Under the pieces are notes generated by a model. It saw only the letters and a program-made list of their open reading frames with translations, had not been told where the DNA came from and did not search any database. Both the position numbers and the translations under genes were made by a program. A DNA stretch of 28,647 nucleotides from Spirogloea muscicola (lineage: Eukaryota; Streptophyta; Zygnematophyceae; Spirogloeales; Spirogloeaceae): the NCBI GenBank assembly GCA_009602725.1, contig WELB01000005.1, positions 1,277,564 through 1,306,210 on the forward strand, given 5' to 3'. Position 1 is the first letter of the stretch, and every line of letters starts with the position of its first letter. This document shows, piece by piece, positions 4,851 through 28,647 of the stretch.

Positions 4851-7571
4851 TCAAGCGCTGCGTGTCCCTTGTATGCACGCCCAACCATCCTCCTCGGTAA
4901 AGGAGACATTGACCATGAATGGCCCGTAAGCTTCGGTGACTGCACTCACCTGCTCAGCAATAGAGTGTACCCCATCAAAAGCCCGTGAGGCACCTTGACT
5001 ATAGAATCTCCGCTGTCACCAATGATGCTTAGCTCACTGTCATGTCTTTGCCACTCCCTTGAGCACTCCCACATCCAGACACTCTGGGATTCACACGCAA
5101 AGACATCCATAAAAGCAAGTCCCTTATCCTTGACCCACACTCGCGGAGGAGCGGTGTAGCAGGCTCACCTGCGAGGTGAGGATACCTGAGAGAGCGATCC
5201 TGCCGCCTGGCCTGGCATAGCTGGCGAGCCGTGGCGCCAATAGCAGCAAGGGGCCCACCAGTATATTGGCTACAACGATGTCAAACAAGCTGTCTGCCTC
5301 GGATGCTGGCCACTTGCCGGCTTGCTGGAGCGGTCCAGGAGCTGCAGGGTCTTTGCCATCAGGAGTCCTCAGGACGGCCTCGAAGACAGGTGGCGCGTAT
5401 CCATTGAGGCGCGCATTGTGCATAGCTGAGGAGACAGCGAGAGGGTCGATGTCAACGCCCACGGCCCGTGAGCCATGCAGCTGCTCGGCAGGCGGAGAAA
5501 TCAGAACTTGGAGTCAGCGGATGTCATCTGCAGTCCAAGAGCTGCTCTGCACTCCAGAGAAGTGGCATCAGTGGCGCCACTTGGGATAGTTGGTGTCTGT
5601 GAGTATTGCAACGACAGCGTGAGTCTCCATAGAAGGACAGCGATGCTCACCTTGAGCGCTGCCAGTGACAGGATGCCGGAGCCGCATCCATAGTCCAGCA
5701 TCTTTTCGCCGCCCTTCACCTTCGCGGCGTCAACGATCATGATGAGGGTCTTGAGATATGCTCTGCAAACGCTCTTGGCTTTCGACCTGGCAAGGGAAAC
5801 GTAACGAGCATAGGACACAGATGAGCTCCGGCAGCAAGAGCAAGTGCAGAGACGGCGACGCACCGCGCTTTTGAGCCACCGGAGGCACAGGCGTGTAGTT
5901 GGGTGGTCACCAGTGCCAAACGCCACGCCGGGCTCCAGCAGGATGCTCAGCGCTGCAGGGTCCTGTGGTATTCCAAGTCAATTACTGCCTAGTCATTGTC
6001 TTGTTTACAAATTTGAACAAAAACAACTATCATCCAATTCTTGCAGTAAATGACATTGACCGATAGCAAGCAAGCCCAGGACTGCACCACTTGGGAACTT
6101 AAGGTGTTAAGACCAAGCTTGCACTGAAGAAAATGCAGCGAACATTCCATCTTGGAATCACTCATCAAGCAAATGGCCAACATGCCGAAGGTTGTGAAGT
6201 TGTGGAAGAGGGCAAGCAGCTCCAAGGGTTCACAATCTAGGCTCTGGAGTATACATTCACGGGATCATAAATCTCCTCCAAGGACAAGCAGAGGTAATCC
6301 AAAAGGACCGGAAACAGTGACGAAGGACCAGGAAGGGGCCTGATGACCAGGTTTTGAATTCTGGCGGCTCTGGTGTTGTGGATGGAGTGAAAGGCACAGG
6401 ATAGCTGCAATTTGGCTCAACATCTGATAGAGCTGGACAGCCAAGTCTCACAGGGGGAAGCTTCGTCTCCCAGCTGGGCACAACCCAGAGGCCATCAGCA
6501 ACTTCTGTGGAGCGATACAGTCTCTGCCGCAGACCACACAGCCAGCAGTCTCACCGCAGCATCAGCACGTCTGTTGGATTGCAGTGTGTCTGAGGGGCCC
6601 ATCACGGACTGCTGCAAATGCAGGGGGGACTTCATGTACGTCCAAAGTGCCGAATTACAGCGCAATAAGTGCGAGCTCGATGACAAAGAGCACCGCACCA
6701 CTGATGCATCAGCTTGGTTGTTAAATCCCATCACGTACACAAATTTCTCTAACTTGCCTCTAGATTTCTCTAAGCATAGATCTGAATCTAACTCCAGGTA
6801 TAGCTTTCTCAGATCCTGCACCTGTACATGGCCAATCCAGTCCTTGTTGGCAATGTACTCAAGTGAGAAGCTGGGCACCGAGTCGAGACCGGCGGCAGTG
6901 GCGGCAGCGGCCAGCGCCGCCGCTGCATCGCTGCTGCTTGGGAACAGGGCCACCAAGCGGCTCTGCAATACCAGCAACAAGGGCGCGCGAAAGTTAGCAC
7001 TGTCTGCTACTGCCATCTTGCACGAGCTGCGACTACTGAAGCCTGCATGGACGGCAGGCGAGCAAAACCAGCGCAAGGAGCAGTGGATGCACGGTAAGGA
7101 GCCCACGATGGGTTACGGGGTTAGGTTTAGTAAGTAGGGTTTAGGGTTAAAGACCTGCTGCCAGAGCGGCTGGCGTTGCTCCGGAGCCTGCCACGGCAGC
7201 GGCCCAGCGGCGTAGATCTGCGCCCATACGACGGCCGCGGCTCGCTCGCGCGGGGTGAGCTTGGAGGAGCCAGGCCTGCTCGGCCAGGGAGTTAACAAGA
7301 CTGGCAGCATTACAGTAACAACGGCAATTGTGGCAGCATGATGGGGTGCCAGTGGCGGCATAATCGTGGCAGCCAGCACCGGAGGTGGTCAGCAGAGGAG
7401 ATGGGATAATGCTTAGGCTTAAACCTGCCTTTACTGTAATGACCGGGTTAAGGTTTTGGATTTGAGAGGTGTAGGTTCGAGCACCTCCTGCTCGGCGGCG
7501 GTCCCGAGGTGTGCGTCCTCCACGCTGCAGGCGGCCGCGCCGTGCTCCAGCAGCGCGTCCATCAGCGCGCC
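4851..7571 (-). CDS. prmA: Ribosomal protein L11 methyltransferase (PrmA family), 5' end unresolved
   Basis: SAM-dependent methyltransferase that in bacteria methylates ribosomal protein L11; eukaryotic members are usually in organelles. Exons in transcript order: 7571-7485, 7187-7155, 6962-6822, 6523-6452, 5962-5864, 5749-5651, 5480-5169, 4949-4851. All joins are phase 0, giving 313 residues plus stop. Family motifs appear in order: LLEHGAAACSVEDA, SRLVALFPSS, GLWVVPSW, LEPGVAFGTGDHPTTRLC, DYGCGSGILSLAALK (SAM motif I), VGVDIDPLAV, VVANILVGPL (NIL motif), GGRIALSGIL and EDGWACIQGTR. The 33-bp exon at 7155-7187 and the acceptor at 5750 are the least certain joins. A Met at 7562 could be the start, but family length (about 370 in Arabidopsis) and the lack of a transit peptide suggest an upstream exon I could not find. 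Head-to-head with the DUF1350 gene. Confidence 0.88.
5963..6451 (-). other. Intron of the L11 methyltransferase gene
   Basis: A 489-bp intron between the exon ending ...WETKLPP and the exon starting DPAALSILLEPG. The donor is GTGAGA and the acceptor is ACCACAG. I see no further exon or RNA in it. The plus-strand open frame running 6412-7137 is antisense to this intron and to real exons. Confidence 0.75.
7111..7153 (-). repeat. Telomere-like sequence at an intron donor of the methyltransferase gene
   Basis: Right after the donor at 7154 the transcript strand runs through TTTAACCCTAAACCC, then CTAAACCTAACCCCGTAACCC-like sequence. These are degenerate (CCCTAAA)n units. They sit immediately beside the splice site. 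Confidence 0.7.
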
Positions 7572-15400: not shown

Positions 15401-17634
15401 GAGACTTTCTTATGATTGTGATGCTGCAGTTACTGTAAGTAGTCCACCCAAAGAACCCTATTGCACTCATAAAGACAGTCATGGCAGATTTGGTGTGGGT
15501 ATCATAGATATTCTTGATGCAACAAAGGATTGGTAGAGTTCAACCTGATCGATTGTTTTCTTCGATCCATATTTTCCAGATAAGACCCTGAGTGGAGACT
15601 AAGAACCTGCTTCAGAGACTCCATTGTTGTGATTCGACTTTGGGCTTCTGCTTGACAGGTGCACGTTGTACCGGATGCTTCATCATCAGCAGGCGACGTG
15701 GAGACCGTACCACACACTCCTGCTGCCCAACCCATCAGAGTGGCAGCCCTTATTGCTGGCGCTCTAGATATATCGTCAGCTTCTCCCCGCCGGTACTTTT
15801 TTGAGGTCTGCAATTGTAGCATCAAGTTGATTTGCCTGCTTGAGCTTGTGTGCTTTCTCTAATCTTACTAAGCCCTTCTGGGAATTAGCCCTTCTGGAAG
15901 AAGCCCCATCATAATCAATGTCAACTCGAAGACTGAGTCTTATCAAGTGCTGGGTGGCGGAGATCCAATGCAACTTGACGTGTCTCTATTTGTGCTACGC
16001 GTGTGCTTGTGCACACACACAGAGGCACCGCAAGTGTCAGCTGAATGCTGCGCTCTTTCACCAACATGTGGTGCAGATCATGCGACCTTCAGCTGACACG
16101 TTGGCATGTGTGGCAGGTCCTCAGCCACTTTGCGGAGGAAGAAAGGGAGGCGGAGAGGTTGCGTTACTTCAGCACTGCCGAAGGCAGGGAGGATTTGTAC
16201 GACTACAACCAGAGGGAAAGGCGCAGCGTGCTGGAGGTGACACATCACGCCCTGAGCATCTGCAATGCATCTGTCTCATTACTTGTCTGGATCTCTTTGG
16301 AAATGCAGCAATTAAGTCCATATGTCTCAAGTCAATACGGTGTGTCTGCCTCATTTAAATGGATGCCTTCACTGAAACCACTGCTCTTGCAACTCTTTTG
16401 CAGATCCTGGAAGACTTCCCCTCAGTTCAGCTGCCTCTTCATTGGCTGCTGGAGATTGCACCGCGGCTACAGCCACGCGCCTTCTCGATCGCGTCATCGC
16501 TCCGCGCCCATCCGCAGCGCCTGGAAGTTGTGGCCTCTGTTGTGAAGGTGGTCACGCCCTACAACAGAACGCGCTTTGGGCTCTGCTCCAACTGGCTGGC
16601 TCAGATGGCCCCTTCCAAGGGTGAGCTATGTCTCAGGCTGGCCAAGCATCAAAATTGCAGCAAGCATGGCTTCCAGGTATCATAGGCGAATAGAAGCGTA
16701 GTGCTATCAAGCGCTCCACAGCAAATGCAGAGAGTGGTTGCCAAGGACAAGCTCACCATGTTGTGCAGTTGCCGCACAACCAGCATGCACTGAATGTGAC
16801 TGGCTCTTAGTAAGCTCATGGCCGTCCGCTCGACTCCGCTCGGAGACTCACAGCCGTGGTGCGTGCATGTCTGCATTGGGTTGCTTAAGGAGGCCAAGTT
16901 CCGCTGTGGGTCTCGCGTGGGTTCCTCCGCCTGCCGCCTGCAACTGGCACGCCGCTCATTCTCGTCGGGCCCGGCACTGGCTGCGCGCCCTTCCGGTCCT
17001 TTCTGGAGGAGAGGGCTTGCCTCCTGCAAGAAGGCCAAGGTCCTGCTCGCCATCGCCTGCAGCTGCAAAACGGGAGCCTTGGCCCCAACATCCTGCAGCC
17101 CGCACCATGTCTGTTCTTCTTTGGCTGCCGGAAAGAGCACGCGGACTTCTTGTACAAAGAGCAGTGGCGCCTGTACCAAGCCGCGGGGGGCATCTTGTCA
17201 GAGGCTTGGGGGAGCGGTTTCTACGCGGCCTTCTCCAGAGACCAGGCGCACAAGGTCAGGCTCACTCAACAGCAACTCACATGCTGTGTCGCAAATGTCA
17301 TCAAAATCCTCAGCTTCACCAGCAGAAGGCCGATGATCCTGATCTACGGTTGCCAATTGGGTTTGTGCCTACCATGTCGTGAGCCGAGGTTGCGTCATGG
17401 TTGCAGGTTTATGTGCAACACAAGATTCAGGAGGCAGGGCAGCGCGTGTGGGAGCTTGTGCTGCTGGGTGCAAACATCTACATTGCAGGGTCCGCTCAGA
17501 AGATGCCATCCGACGTGAAGAGGGCGCTGCAGAGAGTAGCTGAGCATGAGGGTGGGCTCACGCTGTCCGAGTCCAATGCGTGGTTGAGGCAAATGGAGCA
17601 GACTGGTAGATTATCAGTGGAGGCTTGGTCTTGA
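12463..17634 (+). CDS. ATR3: NADPH-dependent diflavin oxidoreductase (Tah18/ATR3/NDOR1), 5' end unresolved
   Basis: Cytosolic diflavin reductase that passes NADPH electrons through FAD and FMN to Dre2/anamorsin for cytosolic Fe-S cluster assembly. Exons: up to 12689, 12890-12967, 13411-13515, 13688-13779, 14152-14318, 14462-14525, 15005-15092, 15324-15434, 15659-15805, 16117-16236, 16404-16620, 16893-17254, 17407-17634. All joins agree in phase, giving about 640-670 residues, near family size. The flavodoxin domain shows LYASQTGNAQDVAERVAR, TTGQGDPPDN and FGLGDSGYEKYN. The linker/FAD domain shows NERLTAKDWEQDVRHIEF, RAFSIASS and the VPLWVSRG stretch. The NADPH domain shows GPGTGCAPFRSFLEER, FFGCRKEHADFLY and YVQHKI, ending in EAWS. 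The frame runs open through a CCG tract before 12563, but no ATG is found, so the first exon is missing. The N at 12563 lies in this exon. The C-terminal motifs are clear. Confidence 0.92.
12563..12563. other. Single N in the first reductase exon
   Basis: The ambiguous base lies a few codons before PPLLVLYASQTGN in GC-rich sequence. It may hide an indel that obscures the true upstream reading frame and start codon. Confidence 0.7.
12968..13410 (+). other. Reductase intron with telomere-like motifs
   Basis: A 443-bp intron with donor GTATGC and acceptor GCGGCAG. Near the donor it carries CTTAACCCCAAACCCTT and ACGGGGTTAAGG. At about 13199-13216 it carries GGGTTTAGGGTTAGGGC. These resemble degenerate plant telomere repeats in both orientations. 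Confidence 0.7.
13780..14151 (+). other. Reductase intron 4
   Basis: A 372-bp AT-rich intron between HPSG and YEAALDPWLAALW, with acceptor GTGATTTAG. No other feature is seen. Confidence 0.7.
14526..15004 (+). other. Reductase intron 6
   Basis: A 479-bp intron whose donor (AG/GTTCCA) was chosen because it is the only nearby one in phase with the NERLTAKDW exon. It holds weak telomere-like words (GGGTTTAAGG, GGTTAAGGC) near 14833-14867. No exon is seen in it. Confidence 0.6.
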
Positions 17635-18889: not shown

Positions 18890-21800
18890 TCAAGTGAAAA
18901 TTGTGACAACGTCCCGCCGATAGCCGCGGACCATGAGCAAGCGTGGAATGCCATCCACAAGAAGGTCCATGTATTCCATGTAGCAGTATGACGGGTGGTG
19001 GTGTGGGGGAGGGGGGAGGGAAACAAGCACCACCGCAGCCGCGCGTGAATACCGCATGATGATTGAGTTGAGCTTGATGGCCGTGTATATGAACTTGTTT
19101 ACTTTCTCCTCGGACACGGACCGGTACTCCAGTTGCTCGTCGCTGGCACTGCCCTCAGACATGTTGCCTACATGTGCCATGATTCGCTTTCGTGCCTGCA
19201 TGTGGCAACCTCATATTGATCAACAATCCCTCCAAGTCTCAACCACCACAATGTCCCAAAATATGTCTGATAAGCTCTTGGAAATCAGCACAGGAACTAC
19301 TGCCAAAATGGGCTAAGCTTTGAGGCCGAGGCCAACCTATGCGGCTGCATATTCGTGACCCCAACAGACGACAGTGCGGGCCACAAAGACCTCTGAATGA
19401 GGGATTGGAACCTGCCAACCTTTGAGAAAGCCTCCACAGTTCCAGCACGAGCTGGATCTGCTTCTTGGTCCTCCTTGTGCTCCTCCCACGACTTCATCGT
19501 CACCACGATGACCTCTGCTTGCATTCTCAGGTCGTACAGAAATTTCCGTACATCTCTGCAGCATCAACCTTGCAACTCTATTAGGCATCAGGCGCGGGTA
19601 GGCAATATCGAAGCTGATCACAAGTCAGCTAGTCTTAACAGACATCAGGGAACCTTGGTATCCTCGTTTAGCTGGACCACGAATTGAGTTACTGAAGCAA
19701 TAAAAAAGTACATCTACATGCTCATCGTGACAGTGTAGATGCCAGACAGAGAGAAGCACAGGCCGGGCTTTCTAGGCATTAAAGCTTTGACCCTTAGAGC
19801 TTGCGTACCTTGTGAATTCCTCTGCTTCTGAGTCCTCATCTGCTATGCAGAAGACCTGGATGCGGCAGCTCTCAAAGCTTTCCTTAGCTCTAAGAAGCTG
19901 GGAAAGGAGGAGCATGATGCCACCGTCTCTGACTATCCAATATAGATCAATTGTGCCATACTGCTTCTGAAATTCTCCTGGCCACTCATCCAGCCCTTTG
20001 ACAATGACGCAGGCCTGCACAGCTCAAGGGATGCAGTATTGTTACTCACAACCAAGACAGAGGCTGCTAGAAATATGTAACAAGCAACAAGACAGAGACT
20101 GCTAGGTATATGTCAGCTATTGAAGCAGCATTGCCAGCTTCAAAGTCATTTAAGCAACCCACGTCAGCTCAGATGAGAAAAGTGCTTCAGGAGACTGAGC
20201 AAAGATGTAATGAGCTTGAAGATTCTGTTTCTGTCACAGCTTTGCATTTTTTACCTTGTTAGCAACCGAGCAGTCATTTATAATGGAGACAAAAGTGTCC
20301 GGAATGTGCTTATTATGCCCCTCCCCTTCATTTCTCCAAATCTCAGGGTACCTCAGGCAAACGATATTGGGCTTGAGATTGGCTAACCCCATGCACTGGA
20401 CGATGGCCCTAAAGCCATCTCGCATGTCAGGAGCAACAACAACCTCAGCAACCCCTTCGCAATTCTTATAGTCGATGTACGTTGCCAAAAGCCGGCTGGC
20501 ATGACGGCTTTCCTCCACTTTGTCCCTGCATCACACAGAGTATGAAGAGTGTCATTAAAGTATCACATGCTTATCTATCTGTTTAAGCAATCCATAACAT
20601 GCCAGCGTTAGCACCACGACAATCACCAATTGCATGGATGACATGACTCTAGGGCAATGCAGCTTCACTCCATAGCAAACTCCAGAGGGCAGGAAGAAGA
20701 CAACAGAACCTCTCAACAATGGCCCTAACTAGCGGTGAGACATCAAGATTCTGCCAATTGCTTACTTGTAAGGCCCTTCTAGGATGCTCACAAACAGGCT
20801 CATCCCACGACCCTTTTTCTTCATGCAGTTTGCAAAGTCAGCAAGCTTTGGGTGGCACGGCACATCCTGGGGAAGGATACCCCAAGGCTTGCAGAAAATG
20901 AGGGGTATCGGGTACCAATTCTTGGGGTGCACGGCAGTGGCTGTGCAACAGAAGACAGACAGACAACTTATCAGAATAATTACAACTCAACAACTCTACA
21001 TGCACGGAGCAACTGCTCATGCCTGGTTCCAACGAAATGAGCTTCACCTCCAAGAGATCTCAATGATCGCAGGGCCAGTTGAAAATAAGCAGACTTAAAA
21101 CCATCCCCCCAATCACCCGCTTTCCCCTTCTTGCCAACATAGTAGTAGATAAGAGCAGCAAGCGCCAACGACACAATGGTGAAGCCCCAGGAAATCATGA
21201 ACATGATGACTGCAAACAGGAACATATGGACAGATAGAGTTGGGCATGAGGATGTGAGAAGCTCGAATTACATATCATCTAAGGCTTGCAGCCTCTTTGT
21301 GTACATACCTAAGTGCACAAGGATACCCAAGGGTGAAAGCAAGGAAGGGACTGGCAGGATAATGAAGCAAATTAAGCAAATTAAGAAAGGCGACCACAAG
21401 TTCTCTGATCACGATTTATTTCCTGTTGATGAGTCAGCAACTCGAGTAATGAAATCACAGCATTACTGGTCTTCACAGAGTGCTCACCAATACATAGGAT
21501 GGCACCAGCAAGAGAAGCAGCCCAATGGTGCCATTTCCAGCGAGGGCGCCAGCTAGGAGCATCAAGGAGGTCCAAGAGAAAGCAGGACAAATTAACGCCA
21601 CAATAACAGAGAAGGAAAAACATGGTGATGACAGGAGTGATGTAGTCCAGGTTGCCAATCACAACACAACCACAGCAGATGAGCATGGTGAATAATGTAG
21701 CCACGTTTGGCTCGGTGCCATCTGGAGCCTGCAGATTACCAAGAACATAAGAAAATATAACACCTGACGTATTTGTATTCACTGGAGGCTAAAACATCAC

Positions 21801-24800
21801 AAGGTATGTCACAAGCGTCACAAGGCCTCCTCTGTTGACAAAGCATTACAGCCAAAGAACTACTAAGGAGCAATGGGCATGACCAGCTTGGAAGTACCTT
21901 GCACCAGTTCAGTAATGGTAGGATGTCATCATTTGCAATTGCAGCAAGTAGACGAGGGGCACCAGTGAGGCTTTGCAATGCTGCACCTAGGGTTGACAGG
22001 ATGATGCCAACTTGAACTACACCTGGAACTGGCCAAGCAAGAGTAGCGAGTAGAAGCCTGCAGGTAGTTACAAGAAAGCAACAACCGTCAGCCAAGATGC
22101 AAGAGGTCTTGGGCAAGGCGACACAAGCCTACTCCATGAAGCAGTCAGCATCTGAGGTCAATAATATTGACAACCATGAAATACGTAGGTAGTGATGCAA
22201 TCCCATGTCCTGGTAAGAAGTGGTGGCTGTCATACTGCTGAGGAACTGTCTTGACAGCTACTTCTGAGACCAGTATGCATGCTAGTCACCTGTCTGTCAG
22301 AAGTACCTCACGGACAGAAACAGCCCCAATCAAAAAAGTAGAAACGACATAAAGGACAGTGGAGGCCCCAATTGCTGAAAGAGTGCCAGTTGGAATGGCC
22401 TTCTGAGTATCTCGCAGCGAGGCGGACCGATTTGAGCCAGCCATGATACCCGTGACAGCAGGGAAGAAGAGGCCCATGAGCTCACTGCAGAAGTGACAAG
22501 GGGGAAACAAGTTCTTAGCAATGAAGGTCATACTCACCGATCTACCAGAAGAACCTCACGTGTAGCGACAGCTCCAATGATGAAGACTGAGACGACGTAG
22601 AGCACAGTTGTGCAACCAATTGCTGACAAAGTCCCCACAGGAATAGATGTCTGGGTATCACGAAGAGATGCGGAACGATTTGACCCAGCCATGATGTCTG
22701 TCACAGCTGGGATGAAGAGGCCCAGCAAGGCACTGCAGTGGTTTAACAGTTTACTATCAGACTCCTTGACCATGGCGCCTCGTTTAAAATGGGAGTTGGT
22801 CACATGACCAGTGTCTAGTAAGCTTAAAAGCAGTGTATGCTCACTTGAACCCCCAATAGAAGCTGCCATTTGGGGAAGGTATGCCAGCATGGTTGGTCTT
22901 CTGATAGGCAGAGCCCCAGTTGCTTTTCAAGGTCTTCCACCTCACACCCGTGACACCATCTGCATGAATGCAATAGAGCAGGTAATCAAGTCACTGAATA
23001 CCAACATAGTCGCCCTGCAACACGGTAAAGAAGGCCATGCGGTTATAGCAATTGTTTCTTCTTTGAAGCTAACGAGATCCATCTGAGCTTTGACAAATTG
23101 GACACACACTAAGAGCCACGCTTACCCGGTTGACTGCCTCGTGGTGAGTCGAACATGCCAACAAAAATGAGCACTATTGTGATCAGCACTGGCACCAGGA
23201 AAAGTGGTCCAAGTTTGGCAAGTATCCTGACTCCCCCAAAGACCACCAAGCAGAGTATCACTGTGACAATAACTCCATAGACCTGCATGTCATGTTGATT
23301 CACAACCTTAACAAGCTCTGGCGCGCCAGATGGGGCCATCATCTGTGCAGAGGAGGGCGCCTGAGCAATGTAATCAACATTCCCTGCACAGGTTGTGAGA
23401 TCCATGTATAAGCGATGCAGAAATAACTACGAAATGTCACTCTCTTGCCCTCACGTGGCCTAAAGGGCAAGACTTTCTTTCTGACATCAGATATTGAGAG
23501 CATGCAAGCAGGCAGGAGGAGGGGCCGTCCAACAAGCTTACTTCCAAAGAGACTCATCCCTGGGAGGGCAGTTAGTGCAGTCTCCACTGCTCCGAGCACG
23601 TACCTGGTAAGGCAGGAACAAGCTTGAGACATAGTGCAGATCTTCATTAGGCCAGATCCGTGAGCTGCTATATTGCTTAGGAATCAAGGATTTGATTGCG
23701 ACCATGTGTTGCGCAATATTGCTGCCTACTTTTTAACAAAGCAGGCTATTGCTTTTCTTCAGTAGAGTAGGCTTACAGAGCGGCCGCAACTGCATTCCCC
23801 AGAAAGAAGCACAGGCCTATGCTTACACCAACTTCAGGCCCTAAAGCTCTCCCAATAAGATAGTAAGGTCCTCCACCCTGATATCAAAGGAGACATTCTT
23901 TGAGAATTACTTGAATATACGCAGTACATTGTGTGCAGGGCCTAATGAACCCCAACAAAAGCATGTGCCTAACTCTATCCTTCTCCTCAACAAGAGGGCC
24001 AGTAGTAGTGCTTCACCTTCATGGCGCCATTGGTTGCAATAGCACTGAGGGATATCCCTGTGAGGAAAGTGCAGCAACAGCACAGCAAGACCAGGAGAAG
24101 TGCTTGTCCTACTCCTGCAATGCCGACGATCCTGAATGCCCAACAAACATAGGTGTCACCTCTTGACCGCCGGACTCACTTCAGTCCAGCTATGCCAGTA
24201 GACACTTAGTCCTTGACAGCGCGGTTATCAGCTCTCTAGATTTCTGGTCAAAGAAATAACGAGGACAGGTGGCTGCAACTTTCACCTTGCACAAAAGAGA
24301 GCCTCACCATGAAAATCTGATGTAGTATATAATGCCCAGAATGTTCTGGAAGCATGGTATGAAGACTCCCATCAGTGTCCCCAGCTTCTGAGTCTTCTTC
24401 TCCTGCCCATGGTGGAACAAAGAGCTACAATCACTTCCGAGTAGATGTAGCGCTTCTCGCTGGTATTTTGGACTGCTTAGTGGCGCTCAGGGAGAACAGA
24501 AGCTCAAGAAACTAGCGGTGTGTCAAACAGGCAGCACAACTCTCCACGAGAAAGGATGAATGACTGACTCTTGCTGCTCCTCCTAGTGTCACAGGGACGT
24601 CCTCCATGCCTTCTCGAGGACTGAAGTTTCCAGTTCCTCGACCAGCCATGCTGACACATGATTTGAGAATTCCAATATCAGCGAGGGAATTTAGCCTAGT
24701 CCAGTGACACCAATCTTGCTAGATGAAGAGAAGCCAGTACAAGCTTGTAAGGCACAGGACGATTGAGCTTGTCCTTGCTCCACCTATGCCAGAGCAACTT

Positions 24801-25517
24801 GCATCGACTTGGTACCTAGATTCAATACCTCTTAAGTCCCATCACATCAACGAGTGGGTCGCACTCAAAGAGCTCCATCTTTGAATCTCGCTCTGCGCGA
24901 TCGAAGATGGATTCCTCGATGCCACTTTCTGAGCTCAATCTCCTCTGCTTGCTAGACCTGCCATGAGAAAGGGATCGACACATAGCCTGCAGTCAGCCGC
25001 TTGGACTTGGCAAACCTATGGCGAAAGCCAAGACGACCTGTCTAAGCTGAGCGCACCCTACCCTATCTGCAGCTGTCAGAGCTGTATACTCTCATTCCTC
25101 CTTTGTCATGACAACGCAGGCCAGAAAGCAGAACTAGTTGTACGCAACATGCACACAATTCACTCGACAAGACAGAGCAGGTTGATATAGGTCAGCAACT
25201 GGCAGATCACTTGCCAGTTATGTACTGCAGCATACTGCAGAGAGATAGCTGTCAGGTGCGCTTGCACGAGGCAAGGCGCCCTGACCGAGAGCACGCTGGT
25301 CCTGCCAAGACACGCGGCCCGGGGGCACACTTGAGGGGGAGGCAGGGTCGCACCTGCTCCCCGCATCGCTGTGAGCGCCGTCCGCCCCTCTCGGGCTCGG
25401 CGCATCCTCCGAGAGATCCACGGTGCTCATCTCCAGCGCCACATGCTCGTGCTCGCCGTCGGCGCGGCCGTTCGTCTCCTCGGGCGGCACCAGGGGGCCG
25501 CCGCCGTCGTCGGCCAT
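18890..25517 (-). CDS. CCC1: SLC12-family cation-chloride cotransporter, plant CCC1 type
   Basis: Electroneutral K-Cl (possibly Na-K-Cl) cotransporter in the plasma or an internal membrane. Exons in transcript order: 25517-25354, 24957-24829, 24650-24569, 24402-24308, 24131-24017, 23877-23777, 23603-23542, 23383-23126, 22959-22845, then 22732-22538 or 22484-22290, then 22057-21898, 21728-21488, 21209-21048, 20940-20766, 20525-20255, 20014-19809, 19555-19420, 19195-18890. With one twin exon this gives 990 residues in phase; plant CCC1 is about 975. TM1 has [20 protein letters not shown]6 [18 protein letters not shown] and TM8 [17 protein letters not shown]. Then come [20 protein letters not shown] and, in the cytosolic domain (about 640-990), [19 protein letters not shown] and [15 protein letters not shown]. 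The ATG has context GCCGCCATGG. TM8 has Gly-Ala where Na-dependent members have Ser-Ser. Confidence 0.95.
22290..22484 (-). other. Alternative cotransporter exon 10b (TM6, Gly form)
   Basis: A 195-bp exon, entering and leaving in phase 2, with acceptor CTGCAG and donor GTGACT. It encodes about residues 374-438, including [13 protein letters not shown], the canonical TM6 chloride-site sequence, then the next transmembrane stretch and REVLLTDR. It joins in frame to the upstream 22845 donor and to the downstream 22057 acceptor without exon 10a. Confidence 0.9.
22485..22537 (-). other. 53-bp spacer intron between twin exons
   Basis: GTGAGT to CTGCAG, only 53 bases. It is the shortest intron in the gene. 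Such a short distance between a donor and the next branch site can sterically block splicing of one twin to the other, a known basis of mutually exclusive exon choice. Confidence 0.8.
22538..22732 (-). other. Alternative cotransporter exon 10a (TM6, Asp form)
   Basis: A 195-bp exon with the same phases as 10b, acceptor CTGCAG and donor GTGAGT. It encodes [13 protein letters not shown] and then [11 protein letters not shown], with Asp replacing the Gly before IMAG, and ends REVLLVDR. I count 14 differences from 10b in 65 residues. The frame is open and both splice sites look functional, so it does not look like a decaying copy. Confidence 0.9.
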
Positions 25518-25819: not shown

Positions 25820-25820
25820 N
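25820..25820. other. Single N at the break between cotransporter copies
   Basis: To its right, copy B starts abruptly in the middle of exon 9, matching copy A from about 22925 onward. To its left is the 5' flank of copy A. The N is therefore a likely assembly join or unfilled gap. Confidence 0.75.
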
Positions 25821-28401
25821 TTTTCAAAGTCTTCCACCTCACGCCCGTGACACCATCTGCACGAATGCGTACAGCAGATATTTAAAATCACTGCGTATCA
25901 ACAGAGTCGCCCTAGGATACCTGCAACATGCACAAGAAGGCCACCTAGTAATAGCAGTGAATCTTGAAGGTAACAAGAACTATCTGAGCTTCCATAAAAT
26001 GGACTCGCACTAAGAGCCACGCTTACCCGGTTGACTGCCTCTTGGCGAGTCGAACATGCCAACAAAGATGAGCACTATTGTGATCAGCACTGGCACCAGG
26101 AAAAGTGGTCCAAGTTTGGCAAGTATCCTGACTCCTCCAAAGACCACCAAGCAGAGTATCACTGTAACAATGACTCCATAGACCTGCATGTCATGTTGAT
26201 TCACGACCTTAACAAGCTCTGGCGCGCCAGATGGGGCCATCATCTGAATGGAGGAGGGCGCCTGAGCAATGTAATCAACATTCCCTGCACAGGATGTGAG
26301 AGACTTGTTTATAGGTAATGCAAAGTGACTACAGATATCACTGTCTTGCCCTCATGTGGCCTGAAGGGCAAGACTTCACTTCTCGACATCAGTTACTGAG
26401 AGCATGCAAGCAGGCAGAAGGAGGTGGCGCCCAACAAGCTTACTTCCAAAGAGACTCATCCCTGGGAGGGAGGTTAGTGCAGTCTCCACTGCTCCAAGCA
26501 CGTACCTGGTAAGGCAGGAACAAGCTTGAGAAAGAGCACAGATCTTCATTAGGCCAGATCAGTGAGCTGCTATATTGCTTAGGAAACAAGGACCTGTTTG
26601 CAGCCATGTGTACCGCAACATTGCTTTGCCGCCATTTTTCTTATGAAACAGGCTATTGCTTTCCTTCAGTAGAGGAGGCTTACAGAGCGGCTGCAACTGC
26701 ATTCCCCAGAAAGAAGCACAGGCCTATGCTGACACCAACTTCAGGCCCTAAGGCTCTCCCAATGAGATAGTAAGGTCCTCCACCCTGATATCAAAGGAGA
26801 CATTCTTTGAGATAACTAAAATACACGCAACACATTGTGTGCAGGGCCTAATGAGCCCCAACAAAAGCATGTGCCTGACTCTATCATTCTCCTCAACAAG
26901 AGGGCCAATAGTAGTGCTTCACCTTCATGGCGCCATTGGTTGCAATGGCACTGAGGGATATCCCTGTTAGGAAAGTGCAGCAACAGCACAGCAAGACCAG
27001 GAGAAGTGCTTGTCCTACTCCTGCAATGCCAACAATCCTGAATACCAAGAAATAGGTGTCACCTCTTCACTGCAGGACTCACTTCGGTTTAGCTATGCCA
27101 GAAGGCGACTAGTCCTTGACAGCAGCAATCTACATTTCTGGTCAAGAGAACAACGAGGAAAGGTGGCTGCAACTTTCACCTTGCCCAAAAGAGAGCCTCA
27201 CCATGAAAATCTGATGTAGTAGATGATGCCCAGAATGTTTTGGAAGCATGGTATGAAGACTCCCATCAGTGTCCCCAGCTTCTGCGTCTTCTTCTCCTGC
27301 CCATAGTGGAACAAGGAGCTACAATCACTTCAAGTGTTTGTAGTGCTTTTCGCTAGTTTTTGGACTGCTTAGTGGCACTCAGGGTGAACAGAGGCTCTAG
27401 AAACCAGCTGTGTGTCCAACAGGCAGCACAACTCCAGACAAGGGAGGATGATGACTGACTCTTGCTGCTCCTCCTAGTGTTACAGGGACGTTCTCCATGC
27501 CTTCTCGAGGACTGAAGCTTCCAGTTCCTCGACCAGCCATGCTGACACATGAGCGATGACATTTCGATATGAGCGAAGGAGATTAGCCTAGTCCATTCAC
27601 ACCAGTGCACTCTACTAGATGCAGAGAAGCAAGTACAAGCTTGTAAGACACAGGACGAAGGAGCTTGTCCAAGATCCACCTATGCTAGAGCAACTTGCAA
27701 CAACTTGGCACCTAAGCTCAGTACCTCTTGAGGCCCATCACATCAACGAGTGGGTCGCACTCAAAGAGCTCCATCTTTGAATCTCGCTCTGCACGATCGA
27801 AAATGGATTCCTCGATGCCACTTTCTGAGCTTAATCTCCTCTGCTTGCTAGACCTGCCATGAGAAGGGGATCCACACCTAGCCTGCAGTCAGCCGCTTGG
27901 ACTTGGTATACTTGTGGCGAAAGCCAAGACGACCTGTCTAAGCTGAGCGTACCCTAAGTCTTTGCAGCTGTCAGAGCTGTATACTGTATTCCTCTTTTGT
28001 CATGACAACGCAGGCCAGAAAGCAGAACTCGATGTACGCAACATCCACTCGACGAGACAGAGCAGATTAATACTGTAGGTCAGCATCTGGCAAAACTACT
28101 CGCCATTGTCTTGCAGACTACTGCAAAGAGGTAGCTGTCAGGTGCGCTTGCAAGAGGCAAGGCGCTCTGAGCGGGAGCACGCTGGTCCTGCCAAGACGCG
28201 CGTCCCAGGGGCACGAAGGAGAGGGAGGCAGGGGTCGCACCTGCTACCCGCATCACTGTGAGCGCCGTCTGCCCCGCTCGGGCTCGGCGCATCCTCCGAG
28301 AGATCCACGGTGCTCATCTCCAGCGCCACATGCTCGTGCTCCTCGTCGGCACGGCCGTTCGTCTCCTCAGGCGGCACCAGGGGGCCGCCGTCGTCGGCCA
28401 T
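25821..28401 (-). CDS. CCC1: Second, partial cotransporter copy (exons 1-9)
   Basis: A diverged copy of the 5' half of the neighbouring CCC1-type gene. Exons in transcript order: 28401-28241, 27853-27725, 27541-27460, 27296-27202, 27037-26923, 26784-26684, 26505-26444, 26284-26027, and a partial exon 25856-25821. From exon 2 to 8 each is exactly as long as in copy A; exon 1 lacks one Gly codon. All frames and splice sites are intact. In exon 8, I count 11 differences in 258 bp, nearly all silent, with one Ala/Ile change. Introns differ far more, with indels. It stops at the N within ...GVRWKTLK, so TM6 and everything after it are absent. It is either a true tandem paralogue with its 3' half lost to an assembly gap, or a strongly diverged haplotype placed in tandem. 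Confidence 0.88.
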
Positions 28402-28647
28402 GGCGGTGGGCGGCTACCCCGCACCCCCCGCCGCCCTCCCCGCCGCCTCCGCGCTATCCGACGCCTCAGAACAGCAGTCCCGGGTGGTAATGCCCGCTGC
28501 CTTCGTCGCCGAATCTCCGCCGAGCGTCGCCGCCCTGCACTGCGTCGGCCGGGCACCGGACGCCGCCTGGCGGGCCCTGATCCGACGGCTGCCGCGACGG
28601 CGGGAGGCTTCGTCCCGGCACTGAAGCGCGCGGCGGCGGCGGCGGCG
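28402..28647 (-). promoter_or_regulatory. 5' flank of cotransporter copy B with CGG run
   Basis: Sequence upstream of the copy B ATG, closely similar to the copy A flank. It ends at the window edge in a (GCG)n run starting at about 28628, some 226 bp from the ATG. Confidence 0.6.

Follow-up and report, generated by a model that had tools for sequence, protein, structure and literature searches.

Twin exons probably let the alga Spirogloea muscicola change a chloride site of a KCC-type cotransporter by splicing

The vertebrate cation-chloride cotransporter (CCC) NKCC2 (SLC12A1) is encoded with exon 4 cassettes A, B and F, which specify alternative versions of transmembrane segment TM2 and its adjoining loop and are thought to tune ion affinity. 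Among green algae, the Volvox carteri gene cyn23 is described as an experimentally verified sample gene with two adjacent 106-nt mutually exclusive exons and 13 isoform differences (PMC4378016). A steric criterion has been applied to human twin exons, in which fewer than 50 nt separate the 5' splice site from the branch point, and 57 clusters (9%) are stated to fall within it (PMC5740500). For exons 4a and 4b of human OGDH, a distant branch point is described (PMC7969005).

The ion sites of K-Cl cotransporters are also relevant here. The second chloride site of KCC4 (S3, or SCl2) is described as being formed by the backbone amides of Gly433, Ile434 and Met435 and by the side chain of Tyr589 (PMC13294203), and the S3 chloride ligands are credited as first assigned in KCC1 (PMC13294203; PMC12401179). 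It is argued in the former source that the transported Cl- is the one at S2, not S3, and that source finds it puzzling what a second chloride is for when K and Cl are cotransported 1:1, leaving the question open (PMC13294203).

Our analysis concerns a window of 28,647 nucleotides from the zygnematophycean alga Spirogloea muscicola (C5:1277564-1306210; the assembly comprises 153 Mb in 471 contigs). The window carries a CCC gene in which two adjacent homologous exons, termed A and B, have equal length and phase and are each in frame with their neighbors (Table 1). As with the NKCC2 cassettes, the gene belongs to the same superfamily, and the exons would offer a choice between two forms of a membrane segment that lies at the ion path. 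Unlike NKCC2, the gene is of KCC type, its variable part is the TM6-TM7 helix rather than TM2, the swap alters a backbone ligand of a chloride site, and the origin of the pair is presumably independent and algal. An NKCC2-type placement at TM2 was not found, because the twins align with KCC1 over its TM6 ion motif and the hydrophobic stretch that follows. The pair resembles that of cyn23 in being an adjacent pair of equal length in a green alga, but cyn23 is a cyclophilin gene from a chlorophyte and has no ion site, whereas the gene described here encodes a streptophyte transporter. In contrast to the distant branch point at OGDH, the whole intron between A and B is only 53 nt long.

Plant-type CCC1 proteins (Mesotaenium P0121, Marchantia P0011, and the other listed proteins from land plants) belong to the same family, with 66-78% identity over residues 160-600 among the best 120 of 2,287 matches. 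Those listed, which are known from proteins alone, each have a single full TM6 segment, with Gly as the residue at S3. For the CCCs of algae or plants, a search of the open-licence literature found no paper on such an exon switch. Twin exons have precedents; this helix and this substitution look new. If the proposal developed below is true, it would add an SLC12 exon switch at a helix other than that of NKCC2, in an algal relative of land plants.

Table 1. Positions, within the window, of the cotransporter gene and its twin-exon features
Feature	Positions	Strand	Remarks
Whole CCC/KCC-like gene	18890..25517	-	Start codon to stop codon in 19 exons; isoforms of 990 aa with A or B
Exon 9, upstream neighbor common to both isoforms	22845..22959	-	Donor CAA/GTGAGC
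Exon 10 (twin A)	22538..22732	-	195 bp; low-scoring acceptor
Codon 386 of twin A	22696..22698	-	GAC, Asp at the KCC1 Gly433 position (Cl site S3/SCl2)
Intron between twins	22485..22537	-	53 nt
Exon 11 (twin B)	22290..22484	-	195 bp; pyrimidine-rich acceptor (14/17); low-scoring donor CAG/GTGACT
Codon 386 of twin B	22448..22450	-	GGT, Gly, the conserved state
Exon 12, downstream neighbor common to both isoforms	21898..22057	-	Gene model

Each twin begins with one base that completes codon 374 and ends with two bases left for codon 439. They lie in a gap-free direct repeat of 208 nt that is 73% identical, and their 64 whole codons comprise 25 that are identical, 25 with silent differences and 14 with residue differences. 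All 18 introns of the gene are GT-AG in the C5 copy, and either twin gives 990 codons. When a draft model was used, in which exon 18 was wrong and each version held one stop near the C terminus, the frame was kept with A only, B only, both or neither; on that model, the reading frame does not enforce exclusion. After correction, the A-only and B-only versions are both open through to the final stop. A tblastn search of the B protein across the gene detected no other exon duplicated in this way. These results agree with the first-pass annotation, which had reported two adjacent open 195-bp exons with matched phase and good splice sites, each able to join its flanking exons in frame. It had also placed the segment at residues 374-438 with 14 differences; the region and the differences stand, but the segment runs over 374-439, has 64 whole codons, and covers TM6, a loop and TM7.

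The assignment of the gene to the CCC family, made previously from the letters alone, holds up as well. Isoform A matches the Pfam families PF00324 (AA_permease, 164.8 bits) and PF03522 (SLC12, 127.7 bits). A PDB search with isoform B gave 557-585 bits for 14 distinct KCC sequences with a membrane domain, compared with at most 311 bits for NKCC or NCC; lower matches included three sequences labeled as K+/Cl- cotransporter, with 71-409 residues (6vwa, 6vw9) and 33-126 bits. On the basis of domain content and closeness to solved structures, the gene is classified as an SLC12 CCC of KCC type rather than of NKCC/NCC type.

Ion-site positions, a set to which the K+ ligand Tyr216 also belongs, were mapped by aligning isoform A to KCC1 (6kkr). 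The mapped positions are Asn131-Ile132 and Gly134-Val135-Ile136 in TM1, together with Pro429, Ser430, Thr432, Gly433-Ile434-Met435 and Tyr589; the TM1 register was set by its motif, and Tyr589 was equated with Tyr534 by counting by hand on the alignment. The twin-encoded segment had been proposed to be TM6, the chloride-binding helix, and this alignment supports that view. In isoform B, the mapped positions are all present except for the conservative changes Val135Ile and Ser430Ala, both at backbone ligands. Isoform A has the same ion-site state, including the Ser430 to Ala change seen in both isoforms, except that Gly433 is replaced by Asp. Specifically, Asp386 of isoform A falls on Gly433 and Ile381 on Phe428, whereas Thr385, Pro382, Tyr534 and the TM1 Asn-Ile-Leu-Gly motif (with Val135 changed to Ile) are retained. 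The TM6 ion motif of A is kept apart from F381I and G386D. By this alignment, Asp386 at the S3 glycine is an addition to the original observation of twin exons.

The glycine is conserved in every other homolog listed (300 of 300, after P0001 is removed from the 301 fetched), a set that includes plants, animals, Perkinsus, cyanobacteria and other bacteria. The neighboring Thr of the K+ site is likewise Thr in 300 of 300, and at the Phe428 position 289 have Phe, 9 have Tyr and 2 have Ser. An A-type Asp was found among the 301 listed proteins only in P0001. The listed homologs were the best 120 of 152, the best 120 of 2,287, and 108 of 108 matches, and they represent clusters at 90% identity that could hide isoforms.

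We consider it likely that exons 10 and 11 go back to an old tandem duplication and are kept as an exclusive splice switch between two functional twins, and hence that splicing probably lets the alga alter its chloride site. Each mRNA would carry either A or B, with the joins 9-A-12 and 9-B-12 permitted and the A-B join not. The 53-nt intron would be too short, from 5' splice site to branch point, for the spliceosome to assemble. Isoform B would then be an ordinary KCC-type transporter. Isoform A would place a permanent negative charge in or next to S3, along with Ile for Phe close by; it looks built to serve as TM6/TM7, because 50 of its 64 residues are common with B and the ion motif is mostly kept. 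Asp386 would be expected to alter the anion dependence of A, most simply because S3 is filled or weakened. If Asp386 substitutes for the S3 chloride, isoform A would lose some of its chloride requirement; should Asp386 block cycling, the isoform would act as a silent partner.

The former possibility would make isoform A a natural CCC with a built-in S3 carboxylate, and splicing would switch S3 between chloride-occupied and chloride-independent states. We put this idea forward tentatively. There are bacterial LeuT-fold transporters in which the place of chloride is taken by an acidic side chain, and the logic proposed for isoform A is comparable. An isoform with Asp at S3, set against an otherwise 78% identical segment in one gene, amounts to a ready-made experiment on the purpose of this site.

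The latter possibility retains exclusive splicing and is nested within the favored explanation, but supposes that A does not transport and serves as a regulatory or dominant-negative dimer partner, or simply lowers the dose of active protein. CCCs assemble as dimers, and an Asp in place of a glycine found in all 300 other listed homologs may be incompatible with transport; it could simply spoil it, which also weighs against the functional reading of A. Against a non-transporting A, its protein sequence is unchanged in three gene copies and the other mapped ion-site positions are kept, which exceeds what inactivity needs. We regard this alternative as unlikely, though it deserves some weight.

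Exclusive splicing itself is suggested by geometry. The intron between the twins is the shortest of the 18, as had been noted before, and the other 17 span 107-396 nt in C5. Because the intron is only 53 nt long, any branch point must lie less than 50 nt from the 5' splice site, and the geometry falls within the under-50-nt limit used for human twin exons. The sole match to CTRAN in this intron is CTAAG, with its A at nucleotide 23 (22515), in all three copies; a looser branch-point match, TTCAT at nucleotide 16, is present in C5 and C41 only. The minimum intron length in plants is given as roughly 70 nt. Donor-acceptor lag statistics for 23 sequences (the window and L015-L036; 246,649 bases, of which 62,500 are N) gave no clear intron signal, and the bins for 40-59 nt, with 36 forward versus 24 control, lean if anything against the steric argument. 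RNA pairing among introns 9, 10 and 11 was also considered, and nine duplex tests found no duplex common to the three copies. The strongest duplex, between introns 9 and 11 of C41, scored -75.4 (shuffle mean -57.4, sd 4.9), compared with -60.5 versus -54.0 in C5 and -58.5 versus -57.5 in C60. Since only one of the nine duplexes stood out, and in C41 only, pairing was dropped as a mechanism of exclusion.

It is possible to propose instead that both twins are spliced in together, giving a normal protein with an extra TM6-TM7 hairpin and no switch. The deposited model SM000060S19634 (P0001; s60:225036-230284, matching the C60 copy) is the top protein match to exon A, and it contains both twins, joined through the 53-nt intron. 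The A-B joint is in frame in the draft model, every splice site is GT-AG, and the even number of added helices would keep the topology of the remaining protein. However, P0001 is faulty elsewhere, in that it begins inside intron 9, shortens exon B and skips exon 12. It is the sole deposited model found for the gene copies among the listed proteins, and no model of the C5 or C41 copy was found within the covered length ranges. Moreover, the 53-nt intron is half the length of the next shortest, and the nearly intact buried TM6 ion motif of A would be needless in an extra peripheral hairpin. Among the listed homologs, only P0001 showed a second full segment, by a test that missed the shorter TM6 repeats in the three Closterium models. 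Joint inclusion seems distinctly improbable.

The age of the pair and the selection acting on it bear on whether A is maintained. Between A and B, dN is 0.19 and dS 1.18 (NG86), and three methods place dS at 1.2-1.5, near saturation at silent sites. Outside the twins, divergence among the three gene copies is only 5-12% at fourfold sites; because the twins are near saturation by comparison, the exon was duplicated long before the copies separated. In a tree of the 64-residue segments with 13 outside rows (Mesotaenium, Chara, Klebsormidium, two EukProt rows and sampled land plants), A groups with B with support of 90/87, where the bootstrap had not settled. Within the resolution that 64 residues allow, this grouping, apart from the outside rows, makes the Spirogloea branch the probable place of the duplication.

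The dN/dS ratio between A and B is ~0.15 (bootstrap median 0.148, 95% range 0.06-0.30, with 494 of 500 replicates usable). When compared by eye with 190 relatives, mostly land plants (193 proteins minus P0001, P0002 and P0010, which lacked the motif), ~4 changes appear specific to A (381, 386, 402 and 437) and ~6 to B (377, 403, 406, 415, 423 and 431). The branch is unclear for two differences (414 and 425), and the remaining two of the 14 (375 and 430) are changes confined to the C5 copy of B. No relaxation is apparent on either branch. Both twins are maintained by purifying selection, as judged from a pairwise ratio that pools both branches and from a split between branches made by eye. Among C5, C41 and C60, the protein encoded by exon A has no changes, with 0-2 nucleotide differences per pair, and that encoded by exon B has one to three residue differences per pair. 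These data extend the earlier view of the exons as diverged copies of the same segment, in that both twins are retained in all three gene copies.

Another explanation, that A is an exon copy in decay with little or no use, draws on the loss of the glycine present in 300 of 300 relatives and on the scores of the splice sites. With a matrix built from 15 other C5 introns, whose own sites score high by construction, the acceptor of A scores 2.7 in C5 and C60 and 4.3 in C41, compared with 3.3-14.8 for the training acceptors; that of B scores 6.2. Donor scores are 5.1 for A and 4.0 for B (training range 3.8-10.1). The acceptor of A has 8 of 17 pyrimidines, a count matched by two other introns of the gene, and that of B has the highest count listed. 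Splice-site strength weakly suggests that B is the default and A the regulated choice. Decay of A is nevertheless very improbable, given that its three copies have no stop, frameshift or residue difference, that dN/dS is low, and that changes are distributed roughly equally between the two branches.

The three gene copies, C5, C41 (L015) and C60 (L016), may be products of the genome triplication reported for S. muscicola (PMC7994812). In the C60 copy, N stands in place of exons 1-8 and part of exon 9. The presence of the pair in all three copies indicates that it predates the gene triplication and is no artefact of assembly. The assembly is gapped, and a single N at 25820 may mark a misjoin close by; even so, the chance of an assembly or collapse artefact is negligible, since three scaffolds have an equal spacer length between twins that differ at 27% of sites.

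The block that contains the twins differs little between copies. The spacer is 53 nt in all three, with no indel, and has 1 (C5-C41), 2 (C5-C60) and 1 (C41-C60) differences in 53 sites, whereas the other introns diverge by 15.7%, 11.6% and 15.8%, respectively (17, 9 and 9 introns compared). With sites treated as independent, binomial P values for these pairs are 0.0013, 0.046 and 0.0012. For C5-C60, intron 9 has 0 differences in 112, so the spacer is not the least diverged intron of that pair. Fourfold sites in the twins versus the remaining exons differ at 4/89 versus 52/429 (P 0.038), 2/90 versus 15/275 (P 0.26) and 2/91 versus 27/274 (P 0.023), which is below 0.05 in two of the three copy pairs only. 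The low divergence fits a constraint on splicing; gene conversion between copies would look similar and may contribute. A 307-nt stretch, intron 9 plus exon A (22538-22844), is identical in C5 and C60, for which the other introns differ by ~12% on average, and is likely a gene-conversion tract.

Repeated TM6 segments also occur in the Closterium models P0002, P0014 and P0064, where they are near-identical or decayed, and P0014 and P0064 have repeated TM1 segments too. These repeats could reflect either independent exon repetition at the same helix or noise in the gene models.

Upstream of the gene in the minus-strand sense, beyond the single N at 25820, 2.8 kb (25820-28647) that reach the end of the window are 88% identical to the 5' half of the gene. 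This block covers exon 1 to part of exon 9 and breaks off in exon 9 at about the point where the C60 copy starts, after at least 3.5 kb read as N. It may be the missing 5' half of the C60 copy, misplaced by assembly. Elsewhere in the assembly, AA_permease matches on C310, C206 and C48 lie in uninterrupted frames of 3,998, 3,054 and 4,285 codons, unlike the intron-rich gene described here; these are possibly bacterial contigs. An Rfam scan of the window gave no match, nor did Pfam searches with seven further frames of the window. Two neighboring frames do have Pfam matches: 16889-17515 on the plus strand to an oxidoreductase NAD-binding domain, and 5504-5977 on the minus strand to the ribosomal protein L11 methyltransferase PrmA.
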